A stretch of 64,000 nt of DNA from Flavobacterium sp. 245. Lineage in GTDB: Bacteria > Bacteroidota > Bacteroidia > Flavobacteriales > Flavobacteriaceae. Under the pieces are notes generated by a model. It was given only the letters and a program-made list of their open reading frames with translations, ran no database searches and was not told the DNA's origin. Positions 9,276 to 38,018 of the stretch are shown here, piece after piece (position 1 is the stretch's first letter; the number at the start of each line of letters is the position of its first letter). Made by a program: the position numbers and the translations under genes. Location: NCBI RefSeq assembly GCF_004362055.1, contig NZ_SNXB01000003.1:186001-250000 (forward strand). The letters run 5' to 3'.

Positions 9276-11756
9276 ATGAATATATTTTTCGGTAAAATTT
9301 CGCAAAAGTTTGATATCGTACAGTTAAAAGAAGGGTATTATACTGCACCAAAAGAATCGTCATGGTTTGGAGAACTCCAACTTGGCGATTATGTTTATAT
9401 GATTGGTGGCGATAAAGTACAATTTTGGCAAGCCAAAGAATGGGGTGTTAAAAATGATAAGGTATCTTTAATTTTTGATATTATAAACCCTGATTTAGGA
9501 ATTAATGTTTCTCAATTAATTACACTAAAATTTTTAAAGTTAACGAAAGCTTTAGCCGTTCTAACTTCTAGATCAGCCCGAAGTAAAGCTTTTTTTAAAT
9601 TGGAGATGTTAAAAGATATTCCTCTAACAGATTTATCTAATTCTCAATTTTATAAAAATCCTGAATTATATAGATCTATTAAAATTGAAAGCAGTAAAGA
9701 TGCCATTAAAAATTCAGAGGATATTCAATTAACTTTTGAAAATAACAAATTAGAATTGGTTGATAATGACTTTATAGATAGTTCAATTAAAGAACAATTT
9801 GTTGACAATCTAGACAAAAGAGGAAATGGAGCTAAAATGAAAGATCCTGTTCTAGATTATTTTTTTAAAGCTACTACTAATTTACCAACAACAATAAATC
9901 ATAAACAAATCGGGTTAAGGCGTTTTTATGATACTTTTTTTTGTGAATATAAAAATAATGAAAAGTATTTTCTTGTGGGTGCTTTTTGGGATACCGAAAA
10001 TCCACAGGATCAAACCGAACGTTTTATCAAAGAAAGCATGTGGTCTAATGGATATACCGACAAATTCACTAAAGAAGTAAATGCTGTTGCTGTAGGAAGT
10101 AATATAGCTATAAAATCAGCATTTGTGCGGGAAAAAACAAATGCCGTTATGGCAATAAAAGCTAGGGGAATTGTCACAAAAAATTTAAATAATGGCCAAA
10201 CTCTAGAAATCGAATGGGAAGAAGACTTTAAACCTTTCGAAGTTAATTTTGGAGGATATATGCAGACTATTAAAGAAGTAACGAAAAAAGATCAAATTCA
10301 AGCAATATGGAGTGATGACATACAATTAAGTAAAGAAAATGATTCTCTAATAAACAACAATTCATCTAATATTTATATTCCAAAAAACCAAATTCTTTAT
10401 GGCCCTCCCGGAACAGGAAAAACATACTACACCATTAATAAAGCATTATCAATTATTGAATCTAAAACTGAGGACGAAATTAAATCTGAGAAAAGAAATG
10501 TTCTAAAATCAAGATTCGATGACTATATAAAAAATGGTCAAATAGTTTTTACTACGTTCCATCAAAGCATGAGTTACGAAGATTTTATTGAAGGAATAAA
10601 ACCTAAAATTATTGAAGATTCCGAAGAAAATAAACAAGTAATTTATGGAATCGAAGATGGTATTTTCAAACAAATTGTTGAAAGTGCCAGAAAGGAAAGA
10701 ACCACAAGTAAAGAAATTATAGAAAGGTATAGTTTTGATGATGCATGGGATGACTTATATAATGAATCTGAAAAGCAAATAGAAAATAAAAACTCATTAA
10801 CTCTTACTATTCAAACTCCAAATTTAGGATTAGGTGTTGTTGAAATTACTGAGAGGGGTAATTTGAAATTGAAACCTATTTATTCTGAAGTAGCAAAAAC
10901 ATATATTGTTTCCTATGACAGAGCTAAAAAATTACAAGAGGTTTTTCCTGATTTGTCAGTCATTAAAAATATTGACAAAGAATTTAGAGCAGTTATAGGC
11001 GGTTCTAATTCGACAGCCTATTGGTCTGTATTAAATTATATCAATAATAAAATAAATCAAAGCTCAAAAATTATTAATACAGAAAATGAGCCAAAATTAC
11101 TACCTCATGTTTTAATCATTGACGAAATTAACAGAGGAAATATTTCTCAAATCTTCGGTGAGTTAATTACTTTAATTGAAGAAGATAAGCGCGCAGAAGA
11201 AAATGAAAAATTAGAAATAACATTACCGTACAGCAAGAAAAAATTCAGTGTACCATCAAATTTATATATTATCGGCACGATGAATACAGCTGACCGAAGT
11301 GTTGAAGCTTTAGATACAGCTTTGAGAAGACGCTTTAGTTTTACAGAAATGATGCCTCAATATAGTGATTTGGAGCAAATCGCATTCAATAATTTCAACT
11401 TAAAAGATGTTTTAAAAACTATAAATAAACGAATTGAAATTTTATTAGATCGTGATCATACCATTGGTCATTCTTTCTTTATAAATATTAAATCAAAAGA
11501 TACGATAGCTTTAGAAAACATTTTTCTAAATAAAATTACTCCTCTTTTACAAGAATACTTTTATCATGATTATGAAAAAATTGCATTGATTTTAGGTGAT
11601 GGATTTATTGAATGCGTTGAACCTAAAAATGACAATAAAACATTTGCAAGATGGACAGGAAATAATGTGACTGTTCCTGAATTAGTTCCTCAATTTATTT
11701 TGAGGAAAAAAATTGCTAATATTGAAGATGCTATTAATTCATTATTAAATAAATAA
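9276..11756 (+). CDS. mcrB: McrB-family GTP-dependent restriction motor
   Basis: AAA+ GTPase subunit of a type IV (modification-dependent) restriction system. The 826-residue protein has an N-terminal region of about 350 residues that presumably reads the modified DNA and that I cannot assign to a known reader fold. The motor follows: Walker A GPPGTGKT (376-383), Walker B IDEINRGN (615-622) and the McrB hallmark MNTADRS (669-675) ahead of LRRRFSF. The TAA stop shares its last A with the mcrC start. The gene begins 20 bp after the HNH nuclease gene, so it probably belongs to one long defence transcript. Confidence 0.92.
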   Translation: MNIFFGKISQKFDIVQLKEGYYTAPKESSWFGELQLGDYVYMIGGDKVQFWQAKEWGVKNDKVSLIFDIINPDLGINVSQLITLKFLKLTKALAVLTSRSARSKAFFKLEMLKDIPLTDLSNSQFYKNPELYRSIKIESSKDAIKNSEDIQLTFENNKLELVDNDFIDSSIKEQFVDNLDKRGNGAKMKDPVLDYFFKATTNLPTTINHKQIGLRRFYDTFFCEYKNNEKYFLVGAFWDTENPQDQTERFIKESMWSNGYTDKFTKEVNAVAVGSNIAIKSAFVREKTNAVMAIKARGIVTKNLNNGQTLEIEWEEDFKPFEVNFGGYMQTIKEVTKKDQIQAIWSDDIQLSKENDSLINNNSSNIYIPKNQILYGPPGTGKTYYTINKALSIIESKTEDEIKSEKRNVLKSRFDDYIKNGQIVFTTFHQSMSYEDFIEGIKPKIIEDSEENKQVIYGIEDGIFKQIVESARKERTTSKEIIERYSFDDAWDDLYNESEKQIENKNSLTLTIQTPNLGLGVVEITERGNLKLKPIYSEVAKTYIVSYDRAKKLQEVFPDLSVIKNIDKEFRAVIGGSNSTAYWSVLNYINNKINQSSKIINTENEPKLLPHVLIIDEINRGNISQIFGELITLIEEDKRAEENEKLEITLPYSKKKFSVPSNLYIIGTMNTADRSVEALDTALRRRFSFTEMMPQYSDLEQIAFNNFNLKDVLKTINKRIEILLDRDHTIGHSFFINIKSKDTIALENIFLNKITPLLQEYFYHDYEKIALILGDGFIECVEPKNDNKTFARWTGNNVTVPELVPQFILRKKIANIEDAINSLLNK

Positions 11757-13048
11757 TGTTTAAAGCTGATAAAACAATACAAGTCTTTGAGCACCATTCT
11801 CTTCATTATGGAAGAGAATATAAAAATGTATTTTTTGAAGAAAAGCATTTTACGGCTCTTGTAAAGTTAAATGAGCTTCATAATAATGAATATTTCACTG
11901 TAATTAATAAAGGAATCAAATTTAAGCAATACGTAGGCATTATTGCCGTTGACGGACTAAATATTGAGATTCTTCCTAAAATAGACAATAATAACGGAGA
12001 TGAAGCTGTATGGCAAAAAGTTCTAATAGAAATGCTTCGCATAACTAAAAAACTTAAAGTTCAAAAAGTCGGTGAAGCAAGTGTAAACAGGCAAAAAACA
12101 CATCTCCTTGATCTTTATTTCGAGTGGTTTTTAAATGAAGTTCAAATCTTAATTCATCAAGGTTTAATAAAACAATATTATAAGGAAACAAGTAATGTAA
12201 AAGCTTTAAAAGGGAAATTAGAATTTGCAGGACACATCAATAAAAATCTGGTTCATAAAGAGAGTTTTTACACTACACATCAGATTTATGATAAAGACCA
12301 TTTGATTCATCAAATTTTATCTAAAGCTTTAGATATCATAGAAAAATGTACTAAAGGAAACTATCTATACTCAAAATGTAAAACAGTCCAACTAGATTTT
12401 CCTGAAGTAAAAAATATTTCAGTTACAGAAGCAACATTTTCAAAAATTCCTAAAAATAGAAAAACAGCTCCATATGAAACTGCTTTAGCAATTTCAAAGT
12501 TTATTATATTAAATTTTGCTCCTAATGTTTCTAGTGGTTCAGAAAATATGCTGGCTTTACTTTTTGATATGAATTGTTTGTGGGAAGAGTATATATTAGC
12601 GAGATTAAAACAATGTGATCTAAAAGTATCTATTCGTGGTCAACAATCTACTCATTTTTGGAGTGGTATATCAATAAGACCAGACATTGTAATTGAACAT
12701 GAGTTTGGTAAGTTTATTATTGACACAAAATGGAAAAACATTTCTAATAATCAACCTTCAACTCATGATTTACGTCAAATGTATGTATACAATGATTATT
12801 GGAAATCTGCAAAAGCAATATTATTATATCCATCAAAAGAGAACAAATTTGATGGTTTTGAAAAATTCGAAGATCATCATATCCATACAAAGTATACTGA
12901 AATTAAACAACATGAATGCGGAATTGGTAAAATTTCTATTTTTGAAGAAGGAAAAAATATCTTAGATAAAAATATTGGAGTGAGAATTATGAAGTGGTTT
13001 AACCTTTCAAAATCAATTAATACCAAAGAAAGACATTATAAAGCCTAA
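11756..13048 (+). CDS. mcrC: McrC-family restriction nuclease subunit
   Basis: Nuclease subunit that pairs with McrB to cut modified DNA. The protein has 430 residues. The C-terminal PD-(D/E)xK-type core is visible as RPDIVIEH followed by IIDTKWK, giving D310 and D323-T-K325. The N-terminal half is the McrC-specific region that contacts the McrB ring. It overlaps mcrB by one base. It is the last plus-strand gene of the defence block and ends 37 bp before the convergent mobile-element genes. No terminator is obvious between the two. Confidence 0.92.
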   Translation: MFKADKTIQVFEHHSLHYGREYKNVFFEEKHFTALVKLNELHNNEYFTVINKGIKFKQYVGIIAVDGLNIEILPKIDNNNGDEAVWQKVLIEMLRITKKLKVQKVGEASVNRQKTHLLDLYFEWFLNEVQILIHQGLIKQYYKETSNVKALKGKLEFAGHINKNLVHKESFYTTHQIYDKDHLIHQILSKALDIIEKCTKGNYLYSKCKTVQLDFPEVKNISVTEATFSKIPKNRKTAPYETALAISKFIILNFAPNVSSGSENMLALLFDMNCLWEEYILARLKQCDLKVSIRGQQSTHFWSGISIRPDIVIEHEFGKFIIDTKWKNISNNQPSTHDLRQMYVYNDYWKSAKAILLYPSKENKFDGFEKFEDHHIHTKYTEIKQHECGIGKISIFEEGKNILDKNIGVRIMKWFNLSKSINTKERHYKA

Positions 13049-32150: not shown

Positions 32151-32726
32151 ATGGAAGAACTAAAAAAACATATTGAAGCGATTACGCCATTAACAGATGA
32201 AGAATTTGAATACATTAAAACATTCTTCAAAGAGAAAAAAGTAAAAAAACATCAATATCTTCTTCAAGATGGCGATAAGGTTACTTCAGAATATTGGATT
32301 ATAAAAGGTATTTTTCGCGCCTTTTATATCGATAAAGACGGAAAAGAACATATTCTGCAATTTGCATTAGAAAATTGGTGGCTGTCAGATTACAATGCTT
32401 TTTTTAATCAGACAGACTCTAACATAAATATCATTTGTATGGAAGATGCTGCAATATTATCGCTTTCACTTTCTGCTCGGGAGCAATTAGCTTCGGAGTT
32501 TCATAAAATGGAACATTTCTTCAGAATGAAATTGACCAGCGGTTATGCAGCGCAACAAAGACGAATTATTTCACTTCTTTCAAATAATCCGAAGAAACGA
32601 TATGAAGAATTTGCAAATCTGTATCCGAATATTATGCAAAAAATTCCAAAAAAATATATAGCCGAATATCTAGGTGTTAGCCGGGAAACCTTAAGCCGTC
32701 TATACTCTAATACTAGCCGAGATTAA
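32151..32726 (+). CDS. Crp/Fnr-family transcription regulator A
   Basis: A 191-residue one-component regulator. An N-terminal cyclic-nucleotide-binding-type beta roll (about 25-115) lacks the cysteines of oxygen-sensing Fnr. A C-terminal helix-turn-helix reads IPKKYIAEYLGVSRETLSRL. It lies 44 bp after the TPR gene and just before an FNR-type operator with promoter (32790-32837), which makes it a likely regulator of the ABM/PfpI/ene-reductase genes. It is of the same length as regulator B at 35848-36423 but diverged in the ligand domain. Confidence 0.9.
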   Translation: MEELKKHIEAITPLTDEEFEYIKTFFKEKKVKKHQYLLQDGDKVTSEYWIIKGIFRAFYIDKDGKEHILQFALENWWLSDYNAFFNQTDSNINIICMEDAAILSLSLSAREQLASEFHKMEHFFRMKLTSGYAAQQRRIISLLSNNPKKRYEEFANLYPNIMQKIPKKYIAEYLGVSRETLSRLYSNTSRD

Positions 32727-32735
32727 CAAAACCTC

Positions 32736-32763
32736 AAGCGTGATTTTTATCGCGCTTTTTTTA
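32736..32763 (+). terminator. Terminator after Crp/Fnr gene A
   Basis: AAGCGTGAT pairs with ATCGCGCTT (one wobble pair) around TTTT, followed by a T run. It separates the regulator gene from the downstream promoter. Confidence 0.8.
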
Positions 32764-32789: not shown

Positions 32790-32837
32790 TTCTTAACCAA
32801 AGTCAATGATTTTAAAGCTGTTCCAAATCTAACTTTG
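32790..32837 (+). promoter_or_regulatory. Promoter with FNR-type site, copy 1
   Basis: TTCTTAACCAAAGTCAA (32790-32806) lies 40 bp (start to start) before the -7 box TAACTTTG (32830-32837), which fits the Bacteroidota consensus TAnnTTTG. Inside is TTAAC-N4-GTCAA, of the same form as FNR boxes (TTGAT-N4-ATCAA). Its centre would lie near -42 from the start point, the class II activator position. No good -33 box is seen, as expected for an activated promoter. The same element with the same spacing occurs at 36509-36556. Confidence 0.75.
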
Positions 32838-32900
32838 CCCCATAATCAACCACGTAAGCGCTTTTAAATAAGATTAATCGAATCCATTTATAAAGCCTTT

Positions 32901-32930
32901 TTAAAAGTGTGATTCAAATCACACTTTTAA
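32901..32930. promoter_or_regulatory. Perfect 30-bp palindrome containing a CRP-type site
   Basis: Two perfectly matching 14-base arms around CA. The core TGTGATTCAAATCACA (32908-32923) matches the form TGTGA-N6-TCACA bound by CRP-type proteins. It lies between the promoter at 32830 and the ABM gene at 33054, so it could be a repressor site, an operator for a second promoter or an RNA hairpin in the leader. The whole gap 32727-33053 holds only this, the promoter and the terminator. Confidence 0.6.
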
Positions 32931-33053
32931 AGTGAGTTTGGTCAACCCTCAGGTTTTAAACTTGACGGAAATTTGTCTCAGATGTAAAGCTTATTATTTC
33001 GCTCAAAAATTTATTTAACTGAAAACATTCAAATAATTAAAAAAATAAGAATC

Positions 33054-33824
33054 ATGAAAACAACTGCTTTTAAATCCATTAACAAAAAAATTATTGCCTC
33101 GATAAATGTGCTTTTACTTATAACAGCCACCGTTAAAGCTCAAAATTCAATACCTGTAAAGACAAAAACTTTGAACGAAACGGTTTCAAAAATGACGATG
33201 TATGAAGTAAAAGAAGGAGAAGTGACTCAATTTCAAAAAATACTTTCAGATTACGTAGCAAATGCAATCGCTTCAAAAGAAAATATCATGGCCGAAGCTT
33301 TTTACGAAGAAAAAAAACCAACTATTTTATGGCTGATTGAAAGATGGAACAACAAAAAAGAATTAGAAAAATTCAGTAAAAAAGAAGAAGCGAAATTAGC
33401 ACAAACATTGGCCGGAAAATCGCTTTTAAAGTCTGCTAAAACGTATTATGTAAAGGATCTTGAACCATTAACTAAAGAGCAATGGAGAAAAACTTCTAAA
33501 AAAGAGGACAATCAGCTTGTGATCATGTTGTTTGTTGATGCTAAAAAAGGAACACAACAAAACTTTAAAGATACCTATCATATTGCAATGCCGCAGTTTC
33601 GTAGTGAACCAGGAGTTGTGACTTATCAACTTTCTGAAATTGAAGGCAATGACACACAATTTGTAACCTATGAAAAGTTTAGAAGCAACGAAGCTTTTCA
33701 GTATCATCTCAATTTCCCTCCAATTAAACCGGTAATCGAATATTTAGAAACAAGCATAAAAAATCCGCCTTTTCAAAATGGATTGCATAATCTAATTGAA
33801 TTTGCACCACTAACAAGAGAATAA
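33054..33824 (+). CDS. Exported ABM-domain monooxygenase-like protein
   Basis: A 256-residue protein with a signal peptide (cleavage likely after TATVKA) and two ABM (antibiotic biosynthesis monooxygenase/YgiN-like) ferredoxin-like domains, about 45-130 and 150-245. Proteins of this type act on quinones or other aromatics without cofactor; the substrate here is unknown. It is the first gene of a three-gene run with the DJ-1/PfpI and ene-reductase genes. The run is preceded by an FNR-type promoter and a CRP-like palindrome. Export of an ABM protein is less usual than a cytosolic one. Confidence 0.8.
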   Translation: MKTTAFKSINKKIIASINVLLLITATVKAQNSIPVKTKTLNETVSKMTMYEVKEGEVTQFQKILSDYVANAIASKENIMAEAFYEEKKPTILWLIERWNNKKELEKFSKKEEAKLAQTLAGKSLLKSAKTYYVKDLEPLTKEQWRKTSKKEDNQLVIMLFVDAKKGTQQNFKDTYHIAMPQFRSEPGVVTYQLSEIEGNDTQFVTYEKFRSNEAFQYHLNFPPIKPVIEYLETSIKNPPFQNGLHNLIEFAPLTRE

Positions 33825-33879
33825 TCCAAAGAATTTCATTCGAAAAAAACAATTATAAATATTTTAAAAATTAGAAATT

Positions 33880-34665
33880 ATGAAAAATTTAAAACAAGTT
33901 ATCGCAGCAGGTTTAGTTGGCACAGCATTAAGTGCAGATGCTCAGATGAATCATGAACTGAGTGTAATGAATCAATTAGCAACCCCTTCACATGTGTCTG
34001 TTATGCCGGTTTCTCAGTTGCTAAACGCACCAGGAAATGAGGCTTTGAGAGATTTCTTTTTTACTCCTGTAAAAGACAAAACCGTATTAAAAGGTAAAAA
34101 AATCGCTGTACTTGCTGCAGATGGTTTTGAGGAAATTGAATTAACTGGTCCGGTTTGGTATTTTAGAGAACTTGGCGCTCAGGTTGATATTATTGCTCCA
34201 AAATTTAATCCAGCACCAGCAAGATATGGCTTAAGTACTCCCGAAATGGCAAAAACGCATATAATGGCAATTCAATATTTACAGCCTGTTGGGTGGATTA
34301 AATTTGACCGTACTGCTGACCAAATAAAAGTAAGCGACTATGATGCTGTATTTATTCCCGGAGGTGCATGGAATCCAGATAATCTTCGCTACGACAAAGA
34401 TATTATCAAATTCATTCAGGATTTCAATAAATCAGGTAAACTAATTGCGGCTATTTGTCACGCTCCAGTGGTCTTAGCTTCTGCAGACATTCTTAAAGGC
34501 CGAAAACTTACAGGATATTGGAACATTCAAATTGATCTTAAAAATGCAGGTGGCATCGTTTCTGACCAGCCTGTAGTAGTGGATGCCAACATTATTACAA
34601 GCAGACATCCAATTGATGTTGCTGATTTTTCAAGAGCGGTAGAAAGCTGGCTGGCTAAAAAATAA
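33880..34665 (+). CDS. Exported DJ-1/PfpI-family protein
   Basis: A 261-residue class I glutamine amidotransferase-like protein. After a probable signal peptide (cleavage near LSADA-Q), the domain shows VLAADGFEEIELTGP with the family Glu, and the nucleophile elbow AAICHAP with its Cys. A conserved DAVFIPGGAWNPDNLR precedes it. Family members act as glyoxalases, deglycases or chaperones in the cytosol; an exported form is uncommon. It follows the ABM gene by 55 bp and is likely co-transcribed. Confidence 0.88.
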   Translation: MKNLKQVIAAGLVGTALSADAQMNHELSVMNQLATPSHVSVMPVSQLLNAPGNEALRDFFFTPVKDKTVLKGKKIAVLAADGFEEIELTGPVWYFRELGAQVDIIAPKFNPAPARYGLSTPEMAKTHIMAIQYLQPVGWIKFDRTADQIKVSDYDAVFIPGGAWNPDNLRYDKDIIKFIQDFNKSGKLIAAICHAPVVLASADILKGRKLTGYWNIQIDLKNAGGIVSDQPVVVDANIITSRHPIDVADFSRAVESWLAKK

Positions 34666-34679
34666 TTATTCTAAAAATA

Positions 34680-34712
34680 GATAACGGAAACTCCAATTCA
34701 GTTTCCGTTATC
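34680..34712. terminator. Strong hairpin between the PfpI and ene-reductase genes
   Basis: GATAACGGAAACT (34680-34692) and AGTTTCCGTTATC (34700-34712) pair perfectly. The plus strand has no T run after it; the minus strand has a short one. It may act as a partial terminator, an mRNA-stabilising stem or a processing site that lowers ene-reductase expression. Confidence 0.5.
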
Positions 34713-34736
34713 AAACAAAACGCAACTTATAAAATA

Positions 34737-35846
34737 ATGAAAACAAATATTTTTGAACCTGTTTCTTTAGGTTCCTTAAAACTAAAAAACCGCATTTCAA
34801 TGGCTCCAATGACAAGAGCAAGAAATGCTGACGGAATTCCGAATAATGACAATGCAGCATATTATGCACAGCGCGCCGGAGCCGGATTAATTATTACCGA
34901 AGGAACAGCAATTTCTGACACTGCAAAAGGTGTACTTTATATTCCTGGTTTATATACACAAGAACAAATTGAAGGTTGGAAAAAAGTTACTAAAGCAGTA
35001 CACGAAAAAGGAAGTACCATATTTACTCAATTATGGCACGTTGGCCGAGTTTCGCACACATCAAATCAGCCGGGTGGTATTGCTCCAGTTGGTCCTTCAG
35101 ATATTCAAGCAACAAGTTCTTTTGCTTGGGGTTATGATGAAAATGGAAAAGAAGGCCCAGTGATTTCTTCTAAACCAAGAGCGCTTTTAACCTCAGAAGT
35201 TAAACAAATTGTAAAAGACTTTACAAATGCTGCTAAAAATGCCATCAATGCCGATTTTGACGGGGTTGAACTTCATGGAGCTAATGGCTATTTGATCGAA
35301 CAATTTTTAAATCCGTTTGTGAATAATCGTTCTGATGAGTATGGTGGCAGTATTGAAAACAGATCTCGCTTTTTATTAGAAGCTGTTGATGCTGTTATTG
35401 AAGCTGTTGGTCCTGAAAAAACTGCTATCAGACTTACACCGTACGGCGGTTTAGGCGATTTACCACACTATGATGAAATCGAAGCCACTTATCAATATCT
35501 GGCAAAAGAACTTTCGAAACGAAATCTTGCCTATTTACATTTAATGGATCAGCAGTCAAAGGGAAGCCACGCGCTGCCAGATGGATTTCTTGAACGTTTC
35601 CGATCTTGGTATGATGGTGTTATAATTTTGGCAGGAAGTATGGACAGAGAAAAATCTGAAACACTTATTAACGAAGGTATTATTGATATTGCAGGTTTTG
35701 GCGAACCTTTTATCTCAAATCCAGACTTGGTTGAACGTTTAGAAAACAATTGGGAATTGACACCGCCAAACAGAAGTTTACATTATGGCTTGGGAAATCA
35801 CGGCTACACAGATTGGAAAACATATAAAGAACTCGAAATGGCGTAA
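34737..35846 (+). CDS. nemA: Old Yellow Enzyme-family ene-reductase
   Basis: A 369-residue FMN-dependent ene-reductase of the NemA/OYE type, reducing activated C=C bonds of electrophiles such as maleimides or enones with NAD(P)H. Landmarks are RISMAPMTRARNADG at the N-terminus, QLWHVGRVSH, and the active-site pair in DFDGVELHGANGYLIEQFLN. RSDEYGGSIENR follows. It has no signal peptide, unlike its two upstream neighbours. The stop is one base from the end of the convergent Crp/Fnr gene B. nemA is the usual family name; the substrate is not shown. Confidence 0.9.
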   Translation: MKTNIFEPVSLGSLKLKNRISMAPMTRARNADGIPNNDNAAYYAQRAGAGLIITEGTAISDTAKGVLYIPGLYTQEQIEGWKKVTKAVHEKGSTIFTQLWHVGRVSHTSNQPGGIAPVGPSDIQATSSFAWGYDENGKEGPVISSKPRALLTSEVKQIVKDFTNAAKNAINADFDGVELHGANGYLIEQFLNPFVNNRSDEYGGSIENRSRFLLEAVDAVIEAVGPEKTAIRLTPYGGLGDLPHYDEIEATYQYLAKELSKRNLAYLHLMDQQSKGSHALPDGFLERFRSWYDGVIILAGSMDREKSETLINEGIIDIAGFGEPFISNPDLVERLENNWELTPPNRSLHYGLGNHGYTDWKTYKELEMA

Positions 35847-35847
35847 T

Positions 35848-36423
35848 TTATTTGCCAATCATCCTTTTACGAAGTCGGCTTAACGATTCAGGTTTAATGC
35901 CAATGTAAGACGAAAGCTGATTTTGAGACACTAATTGAAAAAGATAAGGCTCTTTTTTTAAAATGGTCTTGTAGCGTTCTTCCGGAGTTTGAAAATGTAG
36001 CATTTCCTGTCTTTCAATTATGATCAGATAAGCCGATTCTGCAATCAATCTTCCAAATTTTGACCAATTCGGACAGCTATCATATAAACTTTCTACTTTC
36101 TCATATTCTAAAGCAATTACTTTTGAATCTTCCATTGCTCGGCAACTGTAATGAGCGGTTCTCTGTGTAATAAAACTAGCGAAATCAACCAGAAAATCAT
36201 TTGCTTTTGCAAATCTGCTGTTGATTTCGTTTCCCTTATAATCCACATAAAACATTCTGAAAAAACCACTTTCAATAAAATAGATATGACGGCAAATTTC
36301 TCCTTGCTGTAAGAGGTCTGTGTCTTTCTTTACTTCTATTCTGCTAACAATCGGAAGCATGAAATTGTATTCTTCGTCAGACATAGGTACAATCGATGTA
36401 ATAACGTTCTTAAGTGCATCCAT
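35848..36423 (-). CDS. Crp/Fnr-family transcription regulator B
   Basis: A 191-residue regulator with a cNMP-binding-like beta roll (about 20-115) and a short C-terminal HTH (SQNQLSSYIGIKPESLSRLR). There is no Fnr-type cysteine cluster. It is convergent with the ene-reductase gene and divergent from the 2TM-cupin-CMD genes, whose promoter carries an FNR-type site 86 bp upstream of this gene's start. The equal length and similar setting of regulator A suggest a duplicated regulator/target arrangement. Confidence 0.9.
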   Translation of the reverse strand: MDALKNVITSIVPMSDEEYNFMLPIVSRIEVKKDTDLLQQGEICRHIYFIESGFFRMFYVDYKGNEINSRFAKANDFLVDFASFITQRTAHYSCRAMEDSKVIALEYEKVESLYDSCPNWSKFGRLIAESAYLIIIERQEMLHFQTPEERYKTILKKEPYLFQLVSQNQLSSYIGIKPESLSRLRKRMIGK

Positions 36424-36508
36424 AATACTGATTTTAAGAGAAATAAGTACTTAAAATTAGATTTAATTCTGCTAAATACAAAATCTGATCCCAAATATTA
36501 CTCATTCG

Positions 36509-36556
36509 TTCTTAACCAAAGTCAACGGTTTCTACAAAATTACGGCGCTACCTTTG
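36509..36556 (+). promoter_or_regulatory. Promoter with FNR-type site, copy 2
   Basis: TTCTTAACCAAAGTCAA (36509-36525) and the -7 box TACCTTTG (36549-36556) have exactly the same spacing (40 bp) as at 32790-32837, although the DNA between them differs. Conservation of motif and spacing only points to a common activator, most simply one of the two neighbouring Crp/Fnr proteins. Confidence 0.75.
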
Positions 36557-36635: not shown

Positions 36636-36893
36636 ATGAAAACTACATTCAACATCGAAGCAAAATCACAAAAGAATCCCAAATTAGGATTTAAAATCCA
36701 TCTTCTTGTATTTTTATTAGTTACCCCAATTGTATTTATCGTTTGGTATCTAACTAGTACAACTTATCCTTGGCCACTTTGGTCAACTCCAGCATGGGCA
36801 GTGGGAGTCGTTTTTCACTATTTAGGTGTATATGTATTCAAAAAAAACAACACAAAATCTTATCGTCATGGAAACAAATCTTACAGCATTTAA
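36636..36893 (+). CDS. Small two-helix membrane protein (2TM-like)
   Basis: An 85-residue protein with two hydrophobic helices (about 23-45 and 56-76) separated by a Pro/Trp-rich turn, resembling 2TM-domain proteins of Bacteroidota. The N-terminal 20 residues are basic and would face the cytoplasm. The end overlaps the start of the cupin gene by 26 bp. It is the first gene after the FNR-type promoter copy 2. Function unknown; such domains often accompany sensor or redox operons. Confidence 0.7.
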   Translation: MKTTFNIEAKSQKNPKLGFKIHLLVFLLVTPIVFIVWYLTSTTYPWPLWSTPAWAVGVVFHYLGVYVFKKNNTKSYRHGNKSYSI

Positions 36894-37434
36894 ACGCATC
36901 GTAACTGGACATGATACTGATGGAAAAGCGATTATAGTATCAAACGAAGTGCCTTCACGCACTTATATGGTTGGCGGGCCAAATGGCGCTAAGTTTCATG
37001 AAATTTGGAATACAAAACAAACTCCAGCGTTAATCGATAATGAAACAGATCCTGAGGAAAACGCACTTACGTTGGGCCCACCAAAACAGGGCACAAGAAT
37101 TCGAGTTATTGATTTTCCGCCCGAAAGTGATGAAATCCGAAATCTGACTAAAGAACAAGCCTTAGAGCATTTTAAAACAATGAAAGGCGAACACGCTTCA
37201 AAAGCAGCTGAAAATGCACCGCACCCATTGATGCATAAAACAGAAACCATTGATTACGGAATTATCCTTGAAGGCGAACTTACCTTAATTGTGGACCGAG
37301 GCGAAACAACTGCAAAAGCAGGCGATATTATTATACAGCGAGGCACGAATCATGCCTGGAGCAATAAATCAGGAAAAATGTGCCGTGTTGTATTTATTCT
37401 GATAGATGGAAAATTTGACGAAAAACTACATTAA
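36868..37434 (+). CDS. Cupin-domain protein
   Basis: A protein of 188 residues with a C-terminal single-domain cupin. It shows DYGIILEGELTLIVDRGE and GDIIIQRGTNHAWSNKS, with a likely metal His in the second. The start METNLTAFKRI at 36868 is preferred to an upstream GTG at 36826 because it gives the usual family N-terminus. It has no signal peptide. It is translationally overlapped with the 2TM gene and 17 bp from the CMD-like gene. Substrate unknown; relatives bind small oxygenated or aromatic molecules. Confidence 0.82.
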   Translation: METNLTAFKRIVTGHDTDGKAIIVSNEVPSRTYMVGGPNGAKFHEIWNTKQTPALIDNETDPEENALTLGPPKQGTRIRVIDFPPESDEIRNLTKEQALEHFKTMKGEHASKAAENAPHPLMHKTETIDYGIILEGELTLIVDRGETTAKAGDIIIQRGTNHAWSNKSGKMCRVVFILIDGKFDEKLH

Positions 37435-37451: not shown

Positions 37452-38018
37452 ATGCGAGTAAATCCTATACATCCAGAAACAATGACTCCCGAAGTTCGAT
37501 ATGTACATGATGAAATTTTCAAACTCATCACTCATAGCCAAGGCCCAGTTTCTATGACAAATGATGAAGGTGCTTTAACAGGTCCGTTCCCTCCTATGCT
37601 TGCTTATCCGCAATTTGGAGTTCCTGCTTTAAGTTTTGTACGTTCATTAGACAATCATGCAACGCTTTCTAAAAAAGTCAGAGAAGTTGCAATCCTAACG
37701 GTTGGCGCAGCATTTGGAGCACGTTTTGAACTTTATGCTCACGAAATCATGGCAAAACACCTTGGTTTTCCTTCAGCCACAGTCGCATCATTAGCGTCAG
37801 GAATTCGTCCGGCAGATTTAAATCAAGAAGAAGCCATCGCTTATGAAATTGCATCTGTTTTAGCAAAAGGCAAAATTGTTCCAGATGCCTCTTATAATTT
37901 GGGAGCAACATTATTAGGAAAAGATGGCATTGCCGAACTTATCTTCCTTATTGGTTCATACAGCTTTCTGGCAATGATTTTAAATGGTTTTGACGTTCCT
38001 GCTCCCGAAACAAACTAA
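37452..38018 (+). CDS. Carboxymuconolactone decarboxylase-family protein
   Basis: A 188-residue all-helical protein of the CMD family. The characteristic core REVAILTVGAAFGARFELY followed by AHEIMAKHLG is present. The CxxC pair of AhpD-type peroxidase members is absent, so a decarboxylase- or isomerase-like activity is likelier than peroxide reduction. It ends the 2TM-cupin-CMD run and is followed by a bidirectional terminator. Confidence 0.87.
   Translation: MRVNPIHPETMTPEVRYVHDEIFKLITHSQGPVSMTNDEGALTGPFPPMLAYPQFGVPALSFVRSLDNHATLSKKVREVAILTVGAAFGARFELYAHEIMAKHLGFPSATVASLASGIRPADLNQEEAIAYEIASVLAKGKIVPDASYNLGATLLGKDGIAELIFLIGSYSFLAMILNGFDVPAPETN

Follow-up and report, generated by a model that had tools for sequence, protein, structure and literature searches.

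We analysed a stretch of 64,000 nucleotides from Flavobacterium sp. 245 (assembly GCF_004362055.1, contig NZ_SNXB01000003.1, positions 186,001 to 250,000), referred to here as the window, in which an identical 17-bp element, TTCTTAACCAAAGTCAA, stands before two neighbouring operons. The first operon encodes an ABM-domain protein, a DJ-1/PfpI family protein and an ene-reductase, and the second a 2TM-domain protein, a cupin and a protein resembling carboxymuconolactone decarboxylase (CMD). Each site adjoins a gene for a regulator of the Crp/Fnr family, Crp1 at site 1 and Crp2 at site 2. The regulators and the promoter features around the 17-mer are as follows, in window coordinates.

32151..32726, + strand: Crp1, 191-residue Crp/Fnr regulator with helix LGVSRETLSRL (Pfam cNMP_binding 5e-10; HTH_Crp_2 below cut-off)
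32790..32808, + strand: P1 box (site 1), TTC-TTAACCAAAGTCAA-TG, predicted centre about -42.5
32830..32837, + strand: -7 element TAACTTTG of P1
35848..36423, - strand: Crp2, 191-residue Crp/Fnr regulator with recognition helix IGIKPESLSRL (Pfam cNMP_binding, PF00027, 3e-14, over cut-off)
36509..36527, + strand: P1-type box (site 2), TTC-TTAACCAAAGTCAA-CG, between the divergent Crp2 and 2TM genes
36549..36556, + strand: -7 element TACCTTTG of site 2

A sequence-only reading of this DNA had placed the two copies at 32790 and 36509 on the forward strand, 40 bp before a TAnnTTTG motif, with unlike sequence in between and each beside a Crp/Fnr gene. Re-reading confirmed these positions and neighbours, and the 40-bp distance is exact at both sites (TAACTTTG from 32830 and TACCTTTG from 36549). 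Measured from the final base of the Crp1 stop codon, site 1 begins at 64 bp; the Crp2 start codon lies 86 bp from the beginning of site 2. Class II activators occupy boxes near -41.5. In Flavobacterium psychrophilum the sigma-A -7 box has the form TAnnTTTG and spans -12 to -5 (PMC9723704), and the 14-mer TTAACCAAAGTCAA, whose centre lies 30 bp before TAnnTTTG, is therefore predicted to be centred at about -42.5, in agreement with the class II position that had been proposed. As to the proposed FNR-box form, when set against TTGAT/C-N4-A/GTCAA the right half GTCAA agrees and the left half TTAAC is off by one base in all 34 motif hits at the related loci described below (L061-L079).

Conservation and genome-wide distribution of the element

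Relatives of the locus were gathered by Crp2 similarity, with the motif not used, yielding 21 named loci of which 19 are titled Flavobacterium or Flavobacteriaceae (L061-L079); one locus with a Crp2 paralog (L078) was left out of the conservation counts, which thus cover 18 loci. The motif with identical spacing was found upstream of the 2TM gene at 18/18 loci and on the ABM/DJ-1 side at 16/18, the copy at L067 being degenerate; on that side it was not found at L069, where the fetched stretch contains no ABM gene, or at L075. Across an alignment of 38 distinct sites, the three bases of the upstream TTC are kept in 37, 38 and 38 sites (C at -1 in 38/38), and the G two bases downstream of the 14-mer (position 15) in 38/38. 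These flanks, TTC and YG (Y, pyrimidine), lie outside the pattern that selected the sites, while most of the 14-mer and TAnnTTTG lie inside it. The 17-mer stands as described earlier, but the conserved unit is longer, with TTC on the 5' side and pyrimidine-G on the 3' side of the 14-mer also kept. In the same alignment the bases between the box and the -7 element are variable, and immediately past the latter comes a stretch resembling GTAA.

Within the window's own genome (G000, 5.29 Mb), exactly two copies of the 17-mer occur; neither a third exact copy nor any copy with one mismatch was found genome-wide. Four places match at two mismatches and 57 in total at three or fewer, against 113 at three or fewer in a backward control. 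The check proposed with the sequence-only reading, a genome-wide search that includes the spacing and TAnnTTTG, returned the two perfect sites, followed by three at three mismatches (backward control, seven). The chance expectation of 0.76 covers up to three mismatches and is uninformative on two exact copies. A chance repeat as the origin of the pair was considered and rejected.

A probable binding site of Crp2

On good but purely comparative evidence, the 17-mer is very probably the binding site of Crp2, acting as a Crp/Fnr activator, with Crp1 reading a different pair of boxes at a second promoter (P2). The comparison shows conservation, a fixed spacing, co-occurrence and the pairing of helix with box, whereas binding, activation and dimer contacts are what we infer for Crp2 at this element: a dimer at about -42.5 would recruit RNA polymerase to TAnnTTTG, switching on the ABM-DJ-1-ene-reductase genes from P1 and the 2TM-cupin-CMD genes from site 2. 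Crp1 would read the tandem TGTGA-N6-TCACA-type boxes in the ABM leader, which are centred at about -64.5 and -41.5 relative to P2. The ABM operon, with P1 and P2 before it, would then have two inputs and the 2TM operon one.

The pairing of box and recognition helix was evaluated in Crp/Fnr gene sets that comprised 121 genes and then 191 kept, or 94 after dereplication, mostly from Flavobacterium and many of them related. All 191 genes entered the PESL test: the box was present in the searched flanks of 26/27 genes with a PESL helix, the exception being L078, where the motif lies one operon away, and in 15/164 genes with other helices, all 15 being Crp1 genes that share their locus with Crp2. 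The box appeared in 0/2700 dinucleotide shuffles, and after dereplication it was found in 7/8 PESL genes versus 2/80 others.

Co-occurrence across 199 genomes of the genus points the same way. The perfect box with spacing and TAnnTTTG was found at 12 places in seven genomes, which are exactly the genomes with a Crp2 ortholog at ≥76% identity; the next Crp2 homologs are at ≤38%, except that one of these seven genomes also has a paralog at 67%. Flavobacterium daemonense (L079) keeps both motif copies, and no Crp1 match was found genome-wide at an E-value of 1e-50. In F. reichenbachii (L069) the site is present on the 2TM side, and the best Crp1 homolog is at 66%. For nine further genomes with Crp1 homologs at 65-67%, the motif was not found in the stretch fetched. 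The Crp2 paralog of PS02336 (L078; 66%, same helix) adjoins an operon of short-chain dehydrogenase/reductase (SDR) and alpha/beta hydrolase genes that is preceded by the motif, and Crp1 was not found in the fetched stretch. The earlier claim that the 17-mer is what a single Crp/Fnr group recognises is supported. The same reading had tied the box to either regulator, which stands for Crp2 but not for Crp1, whose RETLSR helix pairs with TGTGA-N6-TCACA-type boxes instead.

Several observations weigh against assigning the element to Crp2. The same seven genomes all carry Crp1 at ≥74% and are related, and because of this the co-occurrence is neither independent nor decisive alone. Allowing up to two mismatches gave 38 places in 29/199 genomes versus about 61 in the backward control (hand count); matches with one or two mismatches thus resemble background, and the analysis kept just the 12 perfect ones. 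The absence of Crp1 from F. daemonense may stem from its draft assembly. No Pfam helix-turn-helix match was found in Crp2. Finally, the left half is TTAAC where the published recognition code (below) predicts TTGAC, with A in 34/34 hits at L061-L079 though G was allowed.

Structural comparison places Crp2 in the Crp/Fnr family. The alignment of its profile with A. fischeri FNR extends through the recognition helix, and its AlphaFold model (predicted local distance difference test score 93.4) has a CRP/FNR fold with a last helix at 178-189 and a template modelling score of 0.84, by query length, against 9qmc. The best PDB match of both profile (1.6e-40) and model is 3dn7, a cyclic nucleotide binding regulatory protein of Cytophaga hutchinsonii. 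The Pfam match indicates an N-terminal cyclic-nucleotide-binding-type beta roll, and profile and model indicate a C-terminal winged helix-turn-helix, as expected of a Crp/Fnr protein. The N-terminal cysteine cluster of FNR (4Fe-4S) is absent, with no cysteine before residue 44, and Crp2 is not FNR proper.

PESLSR regulators outside the genus

In Dyadobacter (Cytophagales), in Arcticibacter (Sphingobacteriales) and in four genomes of the Dyadobacter family sample, homologs of Crp2 at 42-51% identity have the box directly downstream of their own gene. These six PESLSR loci carry TTAAC, TTGAC or TTACC-N4-GTCAA, centred 30 bp before the -7 element in five (TTGACCCAGGTCAA, TTAACCGAAGTCAA, TTAACCAACGTCAA, TTACCTAACGTCAA and TTACCTTACGTCAA) and 29 bp in one (TTAACCCAAGTCAA). 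The Dyadobacter site TTGACCCAGGTCAA is symmetric, a perfect TTGAC-N4-GTCAA, and TTAACCGAAGTCAA is followed by TACTATTG, which departs from the -7 consensus at a single base. Genes tested behind these boxes encode EthD (L180, L081) or SDR (L080) proteins or have no Pfam match (L177). The reading frame of the Arcticibacter regulator gene (L081, 8001-8574) is interrupted, and its downstream box is kept.

A Crp2 match at 1e-40 was found in 6/395 genomes of a phylum sample and a Crp2 match in 7/200 genomes of a Dyadobacter family sample. No such box was found at L174 and L175 of the phylum sample (36-38% identity, other helices), and L181 and L182 of the family sample (40%) have other helices and other boxes.

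A putative second promoter that goes with Crp1

Between site 1 and the ABM gene lies what appears to be a second promoter of the ABM operon (P2, 32908-32975), which the sequence-only reading had overlooked and which, judging from related loci, goes with Crp1. The features are listed below together with the terminator of Crp1, which precedes site 1.

32736..32757, + strand: intrinsic terminator behind Crp1, 9-pair stem and T-rich tail (RNA fold -11.6 kcal/mol, z -4.8)
32908..32923, + strand: P2 distal CRP-type box TGTGATTCAAATCACA, centre about -64.5
32931..32946, + strand: P2 proximal CRP-type box AGTGAGTTTGGTCAAC, centre about -41.5
32968..32975, + strand: -7-like element GAAATTTG of P2

The box centres are 23 bp apart, and GAAATTTG lies 29 bp past the proximal centre. 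Within 1700 bases downstream of Crp1-type genes at ≥74% identity, the proximal box (≥6/10) was found in 19/19 and the distal box (≥9/10) in 18/19; both boxes were found for 11/11 genes at 64-68%, and 15/25 genes at 46-59% score ≥14/20. The 11 loci at 64-68% have the RETLSR helix and P2-type boxes, and none carries the 17-mer in the fetched stretch. A uniform test over 450 bases at ≥14/20, applied to the 183/191 genes whose helix was recognised by pattern, found the tandem in 51/91 RET-helix genes, 1/92 others and 0/3640 shuffles; the single non-RET gene also has Arg-Glu in its helix. After dereplication the counts were 18/36 versus 1/52.

For 40/91 RET-helix genes the tandem was not found within 450 bases. 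A Crp1-like subclade of 21 genes with PKHLIA before the recognition helix (L162, L164-L168, L170, L171 and L194 among them) has no tandem at ≥14/20 within 450 bases downstream and often no -7-like element in the stretch, and it may act elsewhere. In the 123-base ABM leader of F. daemonense, the best CRP-type match reaches only 7/10. By eye, Crp1 showed no sign of the residues with which E. coli CRP contacts cAMP, and the phosphate-binding Arg/Ser and GE motif of a cAMP sensor appears to be absent. On contig 11 of G083, a second copy of Crp1 and the ABM operon (L086/L147) keeps the P2 boxes and has the 17-mer only in degenerate form; the main locus is also present.

Relation to known regulators

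A published recognition code pairs Arg180 with TGTGA-N6-TCACA, and the combination of Ser or Pro at 180 and Glu181 with TTGAC-N4-GTCAA (PMC1274295). The matching positions are Arg178-Glu179 in Crp1 and Pro178-Glu179 in Crp2, and both proposed regulator-box pairings fit this R180/E181 code; in the 17-mer the right half agrees fully, and a single left-half base deviates (A for G).

HcpR1 of delta-proteobacteria, one of the closest described systems, shares Ser/Pro at 180 and Glu181 with Crp2 and has the site wyTTGACnnnnGTCAArw (PMC1274295); the 17-mer differs in its TTAAC left half and fixed flanks TTC and YG, and its targets are ABM, DJ-1, old yellow enzyme (OYE), 2TM, cupin and CMD-like genes rather than hcp or frdX. 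Crp1 shares with E. coli CRP an Arg and a Glu at 180/181 and boxes of the TGTGA-N6-TCACA type (site: PMC1274295), one of them at about -41.5, but its layout comprises two boxes 23 bp apart and a Bacteroidota -7 element. BT4338 (Cur) of Bacteroides thetaiotaomicron is likewise a Bacteroidota Crp-family activator with a palindromic site near a -7 element, but its site is wwwTATGTTnTAnAACATAwww and its regulon concerns carbohydrates (PMC6989115, PMC3878776). Systems of this kind are known; within the reach of our searches, the regulator-site pairs and the arrangement with two inputs are new. No paper on these boxes was among the literature matches listed, in a search that left subscription journals mostly outside. 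The main text of a flavobacterial transcriptome paper (PMC9723704) names neither Crp nor Fnr.

Alternative explanations

The rival that survives best concerns P2, whose palindrome could be an RNA hairpin (attenuator or terminator) and no regulator site; we consider this unlikely. The palindrome does fold well as RNA (z -5.0), but a scan of box-to-box distances from 10 to 45 placed 48 RET-helix genes at exactly 23 bp, one at 37 and none elsewhere. GTGA/TCAC is moreover invariant in 40 sites (from 40 of the 51 tandem genes, those with 14 flanking bases), although picking sites by score favours this, and in roughly half of 12 dereplicated sites, also picked by score, the outer positions do not pair.

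There is little probability that Crp1, or both regulators, reads the 17-mer. Site 1 lies directly behind Crp1 and both genes occur in most motif-bearing species, yet the motif is retained in F. daemonense without a Crp1 match, Crp1 relatives with the same helix have TGTGA boxes and no 17-mer at the locus, and Arg180 predicts TGTGA. Slightly less probable again is an unlinked regulator of another family: the imperfect palindrome of the box speaks for it but nothing direct does, whereas the box tracks PESLSR regulators across three orders while the target genes change, and its class II geometry is common to other Crp/Fnr boxes. A Crp1-Crp2 heterodimer with one half-site each would account for the TTAAC/GTCAA asymmetry of the 34 hits, but it is very improbable given that neither half-site is TGTGA, that F. 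daemonense keeps the 17-mer without a Crp1 match and that the Dyadobacter site is symmetric.

Gene content and possible signal

The operons that Crp2 would control from the 17-mer contain the following genes.

33054..33824, + strand: ABM-domain protein, first gene of operon 1 (Pfam ABM 2e-17)
33880..34665, + strand: DJ-1/PfpI family protein (Pfam 7e-45)
34737..35846, + strand: OYE family ene-reductase, near the NemA model (Pfam 2e-82; NF007899 389.5 bits, cut-off 403)
36636..36893, + strand: 2TM-domain small protein, first gene of operon 2 (Pfam 2TM 3e-12)
36868..37434, + strand: cupin protein (Pfam Cupin_2 2e-9)
37452..38018, + strand: CMD-like protein (Pfam CMD E-value 0.018, 15.5 bits, below cut-off 23)

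We read both operons as a putative detoxification-type response to reactive organic compounds. Because of this gene content, and because Cys44 of Crp2 is nearly invariant across 28 aligned proteins, our guess at the signal is an electrophile such as a reactive carbonyl or a quinone; Cys44 would be a first candidate sensor. At L077 a second 2TM gene (11640-11858) comes first behind the ABM-side motif, and both operons there start with a 2TM gene. The ABM protein of L070 (9666-11090) and of L076 (11726-13147) carries a fused DJ-1/PfpI domain at its N-terminus (474 and 473 residues; Pfam on L076 only).

Other regulator-box pairs in Bacteroidota

The locus provides two concrete candidate regulator-site pairs, and its geometry, with a box centre 29-30 bp before the -7 element and a second box 23 bp upstream, provides a means of reading off where other such regulators bind. 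Among the 94 dereplicated genes, palindromes with 6/8 pairs stand 29 bp before NAnnTTTG in 12/80 genes and 30 bp before it in 7/80, and at 52 and 53 bp in 11/65 and 8/65; the other 48 offsets average 0.9 genes each (largest, 6 at offset 14), which suggests, from samples that are mostly Flavobacterium, a box layout shared across the phylum. Some sites returned by a palindrome-only scan at 5/8 pairs resemble chance, and we therefore relied on box-specific tests. For 37 dereplicated genes, boxes sharing a three-residue helix label are closer to each other than overall (distance 6.7 versus 8.1; as low in 5/5000 shuffles), a significant but modest association among labels that are not phylogenetically independent.

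It is somewhat probable that Bacteroidota Crp/Fnr genes often adjoin their own cognate class II promoter at a fixed box-to--7 distance, so that for many uncharacterised regulators the DNA specificity could be read from the genome. The code would then assign tandem TGTGA-N6-TCACA to RET, TTAACC-N3-GTCAA to PES, TTAACTnAAGTGAA to PQS, AGGACATTTGTCCW to PRH and RRT, and TTGAACTAGTTCAA to some EFLSK helices, and the present locus would be a variant with two inputs, in which a single operon is served by two regulators of this kind.

Several further pairs were seen. GGACATTTGTCC-like palindromes, by the GACATTTGTC core, occur in 13/16 genes for PRHLSR regulators. A AGGACATTTGTCCA-type palindrome lies 29-30 bp before TATTTTTG or TAATTTTG downstream of PRHLSR regulators (L121, L123, L124, L126, L127, L129, L131, L133-L136, L138 and L139) and of an RRTLSR regulator (L132). 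Regulators with a PQSLSR helix (L122, L125, L137 and L182) have TTAACTTAAGTGAA or TTAACTCAAGTGAA 29 bp before the -7 element. The window's genome has 16 regions over the cNMP-binding cut-off, not all of which need be regulators. Several helices of the EFLSK or VFLSN type, though not all, are accompanied by boxes resembling TTGAACTAGTTCAA or TTAAACTAGTTTAA (L245, L257, L251, L195, L250 and L196); L195 and L196, the latter with a helix not recognised by pattern, lie in the window's own genome.

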